From contig NZ_RCUV01000008.1 of NCBI RefSeq assembly GCF_003667545.1, positions 124,001-188,000 on the forward strand: a DNA stretch of 64,000 nt. Reading direction: 5' to 3'. The translations under genes and the position numbers were made by a program. The notes beneath the pieces are model-generated. The model had not been told where the DNA came from and searched no databases. It worked only from the letters and a program-made list of their open reading frames with translations. The DNA comes from Mycetocola manganoxydans (lineage in GTDB: Bacteria > Actinomycetota > Actinomycetes > Actinomycetales > Microbacteriaceae). This document shows positions 712 through 51,114 of the stretch, piece after piece; the first letter of the stretch is position 1, and each line of letters begins with the position of its first letter.

Positions 712-785
712 CGGTCGTTCGGTGAATCGATCGGTCCGTAAGGGTCGTTCAACGAGGGTTGGAGTCGCCTTTTCAGACCGATCGA
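698..785. repeat. 3'-end palindromic element, R'-R-L type (copy E1)
   Basis: Two copies of TCGATCGGTC lie exactly 30 bp apart (697-706 and 727-736). Each is followed by CGTAA/CGTAAG and GGTCGTTC. The inverted arm GACCGATCGA follows at 776-785. The element fills the gap between two converging genes: the first arm copy overlaps the stop of the upstream gene, and the inverted arm ends 2 bp before the end of putA. Arm spacings (30 and 49 bp) match those of the element at 8836-8926 although the arm sequence differs. Confidence 0.8.
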
Positions 786-7398: not shown

Positions 7399-8379
7399 TC
7401 AGTGCCTGCGGTGGTCCTGGATCGTGATCTTCGGGCCACGTCGCGGTTTGCGGATGCCGCTCAACAGGATCAACCGCAGCACCCGCTGGCGCTGGCCAGC
7501 CCACGGTTCGAGCAGTTCGAGCATGGCGTCGTCGTCCACCGGTGAGCCGGTGAGCGCCATCCCGACCGTCGACGCGAGGTGGTAGTCGCCGACGCTGACG
7601 GCATCCGGGTCGCCATGGGCACGGCTGGTCACTTCGGCGGCTGTCCACGGGCCGATGCCGGGCAGGCTGCGCAAGCGAACGGATGCCTCGGCGGCCTCGG
7701 CGACGACGTCCCCGGTTCCCGTGATCGTGCGTTCCAGGGCGGCGGCGACGCGGGACGCCCGCACCGCTGTCTCGGAGCGCTGCGGACCGACACCTGCGGT
7801 GTGCCACTCCCAGCTCGGGATGTGGCGCCAGGTGTCGGCGTCCGGGGCGACGACCATGCCGTCCGGCGCGGGCCCGGGAGCGGGAGTGCCGTGGCGGCGC
7901 ACGAGCAGTCGCCAGGCCGCCCACGCTTCGACGACAGTGACCTTCTGCTCCAGGATCGCCGGCGCGAGCATCTCGAAGACCAGCCGGTTGCGGCCGAGGC
8001 GCAGACCGGGGTTTCGTCGATGAACCTCACTGAGCAGCGGACTCGGCGACAGGTCGATGTCGCTCCAGTCGTCGCGGGCGCCGAGGAGTTCGGGCACCCC
8101 GTCGATCGACCATTCGGCGCCGGGACCCCACGCGGTGGCGTCGACTCCGGTCGCGTCCTGGGCGAGGTGCAGGGTGGCCGGCCCGGCTGGCGTGCGCATG
8201 GTGATCCACGCGCCGGTCGTCGTGCGCCGGAAGCACGGTCCGTCTCCGCCACGCGAGAACGGGCTGACGATTCTCTGCACCTGTAACGGATGCCGCGGAG
8301 CGTACCGTTCGCGTCGCACAAGGTCGCCGGCGGAACTCGCTGCGTCGAGCGAGCTGCGGGTGAGTGCGGGCGCGTCCAT
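7399..8379 (-). CDS. DNA-3-methyladenine glycosylase 2 family protein (AlkA-like)
   Basis: Base-excision repair enzyme predicted to remove alkylated purines. The C-terminal half carries the helix-hairpin-helix signature LPGIGPWTAAEV (about residues 228-239) followed by the catalytic-Asp segment SVGDYHL, as in AlkA/HhH-GPD glycosylases. No iron-sulfur cysteine cluster is present, which argues against MutY/Nth. The N-terminal 180 residues are family-specific. The start at 8379 is preferred because TAGGGT stands 7 nt upstream; an in-frame ATG 9 nt earlier overlaps that hexamer. Confidence 0.82.
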   Translation of the reverse strand: MDAPALTRSSLDAASSAGDLVRRERYAPRHPLQVQRIVSPFSRGGDGPCFRRTTTGAWITMRTPAGPATLHLAQDATGVDATAWGPGAEWSIDGVPELLGARDDWSDIDLSPSPLLSEVHRRNPGLRLGRNRLVFEMLAPAILEQKVTVVEAWAAWRLLVRRHGTPAPGPAPDGMVVAPDADTWRHIPSWEWHTAGVGPQRSETAVRASRVAAALERTITGTGDVVAEAAEASVRLRSLPGIGPWTAAEVTSRAHGDPDAVSVGDYHLASTVGMALTGSPVDDDAMLELLEPWAGQRQRVLRLILLSGIRKPRRGPKITIQDHRRH

Positions 8380-8386
8380 CCCGTTC

Positions 8387-8392
8387 ACCCTA
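8387..8392 (-). promoter_or_regulatory. -10 hexamer TAGGGT, leaderless start of AlkA-like gene
   Basis: On the minus strand TAGGGT precedes the ATG at 8379 by 7 nt, with no Shine-Dalgarno sequence. Confidence 0.4.
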
Positions 8393-8430
8393 CGTCAGGG
8401 GCACCGACATTCGCCGGGGAGCTGCTGTGG

Positions 8431-8573
8431 TTCATCGGTCCCGTTTGCCCGGTTTCGGGCCACAAAACCGACATTCCGGACCGACGAACGCACCCCGTCG
8501 CATCCGACCCCGCTTCATCGGTCCCGTATGCCGCTTTTCGGGCCGCACACCCGACATTCCGGACCGACGAACG
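8431..8573. repeat. Tandem pair of 60-bp palindromic elements (family 2)
   Basis: Two near-identical 60-bp units (8431-8490 and 8514-8573, period 83 bp) each run from TTCATCGGTCCCGT to ATTCCGGACCGACGAACG. The ends form an inverted repeat (CGGTCC/GGACCG with TTC/GAA outside). The first unit contains an inner CGGTTT/AAACCG dyad. This is part of the 555-bp non-coding gap 8380-8934, which holds no gene but five element copies of three families. Confidence 0.8.
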
Positions 8574-8621
8574 GTGGTTCCGACGAAAATCCTGCGTGAC
8601 GCCCGCGCCTCGCGCTACAAC

Positions 8622-8760
8622 TGTCGCAAACGCACCGCATCCCGCCGCAAAGCGCGCAATAGCGACCACCGAACCGCGGCCGGCATCCCGAGCGACACTT
8701 CAGTTGTCGCAAACGCACCGCATTCCGCCGCAAAGCGCGCATCAGCGACCACCGAACCGC
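8622..8760. repeat. Tandem pair of 56-57-bp repeats (family 3)
   Basis: Two near-identical units (8622-8678 and 8705-8760) begin TGTCGCAAACGCACCGCAT and end AGCGACCACCGAACCGC. They are 83 bp apart, the same period as the neighbouring family-2 pair. Ends GTCGC/GCGAC are inverted. No other copy is seen in the window. The long frames that read through this region are repeat artefacts, not genes. Confidence 0.75.
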
Positions 8761-8835
8761 CGTCTCACCCGGCCACCCACTCACCCACGGCGTCCCCACG
8801 AGACGGATGCCGCGGCATCCGCCCCGTAAAAAACG

Positions 8836-8926
8836 TCGCTCGGTCAAGAATGGTCGCCCCGCACCGCGCACTCTCGCCAAAACCGACCGAGCGATGCGGC
8901 GAACAGCCGAAACCGACCGAGCAACG
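8836..8926. repeat. 3'-end palindromic element, R'-R-L type (family 4, copy a)
   Basis: GCTCGGTC at 8838-8845 is inverted against GACCGAGC at 8885-8892, which is repeated directly at 8915-8922 (30 bp on). The element ends 8 nt beyond the stop of the minus-strand thioesterase gene, with the doubled arm nearest that stop. It aligns along its whole 90 bp with 51024-51114. GGATGCCGCGGCATCC abuts the single-arm side at 8813. Confidence 0.82.
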
Positions 8927-8934
8927 GCACGAGC

Positions 8935-9519
8935 TCAGCGCGGATCGACCGGAACCGCGCCAGGCCACTCGCTCGGCGCCGGTGCAGAGGTCGACGGGAG
9001 CGCGACATCCTGGCCCCAGCGGACCTGCCACTCCGGAAGCCGCAGCTCCGGCGGCACCGACCCGATCGCGTCGATGAGTTCGGCAACCGACACGGTTCCG
9101 CCGCGCTTCTTGAGGAATCGCGCCCGGATCGTGGCCTGCGCGAAGATCTCACCGTTCACGACGATCCGCTGGTCGACGAACACCGCCTTGTCGTCGTAGC
9201 CTGATACCCGCGTCTCGATCACGAATTTCTGCCACAGCTTGAGCGACTTCCTGAACGTGATCGTCTCGGCGACAACGACCGGGTACCAGCCGCGGCCGGT
9301 GAGGATGTCCCAGATCCCGTTCCGGATGAGCAGGTCGAACCGCCCGAGATCCAGCACAGACAGGTACACACCGTTGTTCATGTGCCGATTGAGGTCGAGG
9401 TCGGTCGGCAGCACACGCATCGGGAGACGCCCGACGTCATAGTGCCCGATCGCGGGGCCGCGCTTACCGGCGCGGGGTGCACGCAGGAACAGAAGCAGGG
9501 TGCGGAAAATCATGTGCAT
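8935..9519 (-). CDS. Hotdog-fold acyl-CoA thioesterase-like protein
   Basis: The 194-residue protein resembles the 4HBT/THEM6 group of hotdog thioesterases: the signature LPTDLDLNRHMNNGVYL (about residues 34-50) is the typical start of the hotdog domain, followed by the strand-helix pattern ending near FLKKRGG. Such proteins hydrolyse acyl-CoA or acyl-carrier thioesters; the acyl group is not predictable. About 40 C-terminal residues rich in Pro/Ala lie outside the fold. The ATG at 9519 has TAGCAT 7 nt upstream, so it is probably leaderless. Confidence 0.75.
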   Translation of the reverse strand: MHMIFRTLLLFLRAPRAGKRGPAIGHYDVGRLPMRVLPTDLDLNRHMNNGVYLSVLDLGRFDLLIRNGIWDILTGRGWYPVVVAETITFRKSLKLWQKFVIETRVSGYDDKAVFVDQRIVVNGEIFAQATIRARFLKKRGGTVSVAELIDAIGSVPPELRLPEWQVRWGQDVALPSTSAPAPSEWPGAVPVDPR

Positions 9520-51023: not shown

Positions 51024-51114
51024 TTGCTCGGTCGGGAATGGTCGAATCGCACGGCGAACTCTCGCCATGTGTGACCGAGCAACGTGTGCGAACCACCGAA
51101 AGCGACCGAGCAAT
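51024..51114. repeat. 3'-end palindromic element, R'-R-L type (family 4, copy b)
   Basis: GCTCGGTC (51026-51033) is inverted against GACCGAGC at 51073-51080, repeated at 51104-51111 (31 bp on). It ends 9 nt beyond the stop of the minus-strand beta-lactamase-like gene, with the doubled arm nearest the stop. It aligns over its full length with 8836-8926, including GGAATGGTCG near GAATGGTCG. GGATGCCGCGG abuts the single-arm side at 51012. Confidence 0.82.

Follow-up and report, generated by a model that had tools for sequence, protein, structure and literature searches.

Gene calling delimited a gene-free interval at positions 8389-8934 of the window (the whole 64,000-nucleotide stretch of Mycetocola manganoxydans DNA that was analysed), confirming the gap that the initial annotation had described as packed with five repeat copies. 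The five units that fill this interval comprise two copies of F2, two of F3 and one of F4, and they are listed below with the remaining features and the two flanking genes.

7399..8388, minus strand: gene with its upstream end facing the gap (start at the gap), without a Pfam match
8431..8488, minus strand: F2 unit 1, a 58-bp inverted repeat with arms TTCATCGGTCC / GGACCGACGAA
8489..8513, no strand assigned: 25-bp spacer between the F2 units
8514..8571, minus strand: F2 unit 2, starting 83 bp from F2 unit 1
8616..8673, minus strand: F3 unit 1, a somewhat degenerate 58-bp inverted repeat with arms related to TTCGGTGGTCGC / GCGACAGTTGAA
8674..8698, no strand assigned: 25-bp spacer between the F3 units, its sequence differing from that of the F2 spacer
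8699..8756, minus strand: F3 unit 2, starting 83 bp from F3 unit 1
8804..8821, no strand assigned: short palindrome CGGATGCCGCGGCATCCG
8836..8894, no strand assigned: F4 unit, a 59-bp inverted repeat with arms TCGCTCGGTC / GACCGAGCGA and little pairing in the interior
8906..8922, plus strand: additional direct copy of the F4 right arm, GCCGAAACCGACCGAGC (family D4)
8935..9519, minus strand: gene ending at the gap, thioesterase superfamily (PF13279)

The motif LPGIGPWTA suggests that the gene at 7399..8388 may encode a DNA-glycosylase-like protein. Units are listed on the strand where the model matched better, which is no proof of transcription. The two F2 units are 88% identical (E about 1e-16) and the two F3 units 90-95% identical; F3 unit 1 follows F2 unit 2 at a distance of 102 bp. 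The second copy of the F4 right arm follows the first after 30 bp, or about three helical turns. Other F4 copies occur elsewhere in the genome, including a 59-bp F4-type unit at window positions 51024-51082 (TTGCTCGGTC..GACCGAGCAA). Besides, a 59-bp inverted repeat of the TCGATCGGTCC type was observed at window positions 727-785, with more copies at C32:3157, C27:221304 and C16:266. The most over-represented 6-mer of the window is GGATGC/GCATCC (177 occurrences against about 55 expected), which is frequently seen in spacers immediately before units.

Architecture and census of the units

Related units were searched for with a looser pattern and two covariance models in six genomes of the genus, one per species, and were present in all six. 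The catalogue comprises 132 units at 40 further loci plus the gap at 8389-8934, with at least 28 arrays holding two or more units. Unit length was 57-59 bp in 130 of the 132 (108 units of 58 bp, 13 of 59 bp and 9 of 57 bp, with single units of 55 and 63 bp), some bias toward 58 bp being expected from the 58-position models with which the catalogue was built. In addition, an F2-arm pattern allowing variable arm spacing recovered 15 copies in the genome, all of them with 56 nt between corresponding arm positions. In the assembly of the window's genome, two contigs end inside near-identical array units (the end of L088 and the start of L172), apparently within one further array with a 25-nt spacer; arrays may therefore break assemblies and be under-counted.

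The copies in the gap had been assigned to three families; F2, F3 and F4 are related versions of one architecture, a 58-59-bp inverted repeat, and not three unrelated repeats. F2 and F3 have a common T2, G8, C10 skeleton, and positions T2, G8, C10, G49 and C51 do not vary among the 48 representative units that were aligned. The conserved outer TTC is itself paired, the left arm of F3 differs from its right arm, and the interior half of the units in G201 is no longer palindromic. F3-type units are abundant in G086 and F2-type units in G201; both types occur in the window's genome, and a TTCRTCCGTC type is found in G246 and G149. In the 48-unit alignment, changes on both sides of the stem (compensatory changes) were found in 16 of the 21 arm pairs; the covariation score was 0.387, whereas shuffles scored 0.203 +/- 0.013 and slid pairings no more than 0.11. 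Compensatory changes and covariation above both controls indicate that the inverted repeat has been maintained and not merely inherited.

The arrays are like CRISPR arrays in the regular alternation of repeat and spacer, and differ from them in that the repeats diverge within and between arrays, the spacers are often copies, and the arrays are short, numerous and dispersed. Integron attC sites carry an R box (GTTRRRY / RYYYAAC) at their arms, and no such box was found at the arms of the units, which were read by eye.

Spacing and helical phase

The equal period of the two tandem pairs was exact, with 83 bp from start to start in both F2 and F3, and the difference in sequence that had been noted between the pairs was recovered in their unlike 25-bp spacers, though the F2 and F3 units themselves are related. 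The 83-bp period was also present at other tandem pairs, as opposed to unrelated periods. Among 84 neighbour distances from 26 arrays, 52 were at 80-84 bp and 7 at 71-73 bp, with smaller groups at 92-95, 102-104 and 124-126 bp and some other values. A spacing of 82-84 bp was seen in most arrays regardless of unit family or spacer sequence, including the four later arrays L146, L158, L170 and L171 (all at 83-84 bp). Moreover, F2 and F3 units alternate at 81-83 bp within a single array of the window's genome (C9), and since this mixed array keeps the spacing, the period does not belong to any single family. When the 24-25-bp spacers were clustered by single linkage, all of them merged, since about 64% identity is already reached between random 25-mers, and for this reason spacer independence of the 83-bp class was judged by array.

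The main spacings other than 83 bp (72, 93 and 103.5 bp) are offset from it by whole helical turns, so that the spacing groups lie one turn apart, with two turns between 103 and 125 bp. In a phase test using one value per class per array, with the 83-bp class left out and a period of 10.4 bp, the remaining values shared the phase of the 83-bp class (p about 1e-4 with the 15 values that do not exceed 130 bp), the signal being weaker with all 19 values up to 165 bp (p = 0.015); the period is the known repeat of B-DNA, the idea for testing was prompted by the same distances, and the independence of the values is imperfect because arrays within one genus share ancestry. When the test was run on spacer clusters, none of 20,000 simulations reached the observed value for spacings up to 130 bp, and p was 0.0024 once spacings up to 170 bp were admitted. 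Spacings out of phase were 80, 108, 111.5, 131, 141, 149 and 160.5 bp. At one orthologous locus (L073/L078), units follow each other at 103 bp in G086 and at 72 bp in G201, three turns fewer.

Equal periods had been ascribed to duplication by one mechanism or to a spacing requirement, and both proposals found support. Units and spacers have been copied nearly exactly in some arrays (L066, L067, L077 and L080), and the copies in the last three of these show that local duplication expands arrays. The spacing requirement was largely borne out and is favoured because 82-84 bp recurs across families and unlike spacers and because 72, 93 and 103.5 bp are whole-turn offsets.

Genomic location and turnover between species

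All arrays were intergenic, with no gene inside an array at the 41 loci examined, and the units lie close to stop codons. Convergent genes flanked 22 of the 39 loci at which both neighbours were called, as against 9 of the 64 pairs of neighbouring genes within the window (p = 1.4e-5), gene orientation having been taken from a simple codon-usage gene caller and the p value being somewhat optimistic because some loci are mutually orthologous. The flanking genes examined were unrelated housekeeping genes; a recurrent neighbour was considered as a candidate for a binding protein and rejected, since recurrence arose only from orthology of the loci. At L092, an F2/F3 array was observed between two convergent genes for putative topoisomerase subunits, ParC/ParE-like as judged from their sequences.

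Comparison of the flanking proteins at all loci revealed that the same intergenic gaps hold arrays in different species, and in orthologous gaps occupied in up to five species the units differ in family, sequence and number. The gap between the genes for undecaprenyl-diphosphate synthase and DsbA contains units in five of the six species, with F2 and F3 units in G000, six F3-type units in G086, six F2-type units in G201, two units in G246 and one in G149. A unit was also present in 7 of 40 further orthologous regions, for which our own estimate of the expectation is well under one (about 10-20 loci per genome scattered randomly over several thousand gaps). A model-free palindrome scan of orthologous gaps gave 24 against a null of 17, and because this is little excess, the positional conservation rests on model matches.

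The gap at 8389-8934 is syntenic in the two closest species, G246 and G149, and contains no unit in either of them. Comparison with close relatives thus revealed that the locus is not invariant, and the absence of the array from the same gap indicates that it is dispensable in these species. Within the genus-wide set of arrays, which is itself unusual, this gap is an ordinary case.

Possible function and origin of the arrays

The most economical account, to which we give a probability of roughly 0.45, is that the arrays are BIME-like, phased double-stranded sites for a putative protein. Each unit would most likely be bound as double-stranded DNA by a putative dimeric protein reading the inverted arms (core TTC-NNNN-GTC), and neighbouring units at whole helical turns, usually eight, would align the bound protein on one face of the helix and thereby allow its cooperative assembly. 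Double-stranded DNA is favoured as the functional form because there is no net strand bias and the spacing is helical. Local duplication makes the arrays grow and shrink, and unit sequences are replaced species by species, as though tracking a shifting binding specificity. The difference between the left and right arms of F3 counts against this account, since it is not what a simple symmetric dimer predicts, and so do the spacings out of phase, the loss of palindromic symmetry from the interior half of the G201 units and the absence of the window's array from the two closest species. The likeliest function would be in topology, insulation or nucleoid organisation, as proposed for BIMEs, because the arrays are found close to stop codons, in most cases where genes converge. 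Enterobacterial BIMEs are also palindromic units in regularly spaced arrays at gene ends and, according to one published account, have been reported as binding sites of several proteins (PMC2817692). BIMEs alternate the orientation of their REP units, whereas the units described here are near-symmetric, spaced by whole turns and tandem rather than clearly alternating. A further mark of BIMEs is that they bind gyrase, IHF or Pol I.

A somewhat unlikely alternative is that the arrays are palindromic repeats of a selfish or mobile kind, comparable to REPINs or MITEs, and are spread by some enzyme that sets the spacing and prefers sites beside existing units or gene ends, their positional conservation reflecting either hot spots or ancient insertions since replaced by more recent families. 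Such an origin is consistent with species-specific families dispersed over each genome, with the lineage-specific array of the window, and with similar 48-61-bp hairpins, partly sharing a GTCGCA core, which turned up in about 11 of the 85 genera sampled from the family and mostly stood alone in the stretches examined. The units are also like REP and REPIN elements in being short, palindromic, intergenic, often grouped, divided into many families and located downstream of genes or between convergent genes. REPs are 20-40 bp long with small stems and an unpaired GTAG or CGTC tag, and Actinobacteria are not mentioned in the text of the REP survey (PMC3733652). Unlike members of the GTAG and CGTC superfamilies, the units here are 57-59 bp long with arms of about 11-21 bp, and no unpaired GTAG or CGTC tag was seen in them. 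Moreover, the Y1_Tnp gene (RAYT, PF01797) was absent from all six genomes (controls matched in 5 of 14), which rules out RAYT-driven spread for this genus; mobilisation by another enzyme is possible. Transposition alone would not give helical-turn spacing, no unit lay within a gene at the 41 loci, and inspection of the flanks, made without a clean empty site for comparison, revealed no obvious target-site duplications. In addition, no F2 or F3 unit was found in viral contigs, and neither phages nor plasmids yielded a real relative (plasmids gave two short matches of 26-32 bases). The arrays resemble REP and BIME clusters yet fall outside the REP family by the tests made.

We regard as rather doubtful the proposal of an undescribed bacterial chromatin-like system, in which a putative DNA-binding protein, with a specificity that shifts rapidly from species to species, would assemble on helically phased palindromic arrays at fixed intergenic positions, and the sequences of the arrays would be replaced genome-wide in step with it.

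It is also unlikely that the units act as RNA hairpins in 3' untranslated regions, either as bidirectional terminators or as RNA-processing signals at gene ends. Their location near stop codons and between convergent genes, the compensatory pair changes and the stable RNA hairpins predicted for most units agree with such a role. However, window positions 8200-9100 contain no terminator-like T tract and no intrinsic terminator, in which such a tract comes directly after a GC-rich hairpin, and the Rfam search returned three matches, all under the gathering score, leaving the units unassigned to any known structured RNA family. Viewed unit by unit, a strand bias toward wobble pairs appeared strong, but once G-T and A-C mismatches were collapsed by array and position there was no clear bias (p = 0.05, 0.38 and 0.91 for the three families); the G-U asymmetry had been inherited within arrays, and the RNA-strand hypothesis was rejected. 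The wobble-favoured strand was that of the genes at no more than about 6 of the 9 codirectional loci that were informative, a result judged not informative, and RNA needs neither helical-turn spacing nor a strict unit length. Finally, it is very improbable that replication slippage or recombination simply duplicated an 83-bp segment locally in tandem and that the period has no function. Such an origin agrees with the near-identical units and spacers in L066, L067 and L077, but is already weakened because the period returns in different families, alongside unlike spacers and in arrays that mix F2 and F3, because whole-turn alternatives of 72, 93 and 103 bp exist, and because several species have arrays at the same orthologous loci.

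Enterobacteria and pseudomonads are already known to have palindromic repeats at regular spacing. In our literature search (preprints and most subscription journals lay outside its scope), no such arrays were described, either in actinobacteria or with whole-turn spacing. The reading as phased protein-binding sites is testable, since phasing predicts cooperative protein binding, and the combination of fixed positions with changing sequences provides a comparative handle for distinguishing selfish repeats from repeats that serve the chromosome. In other genera of the family, near-perfect hairpins of 48-60 bp, such as CGAGTTGTCGCATATCGACC, were observed as single units (L104-L111 and L117).
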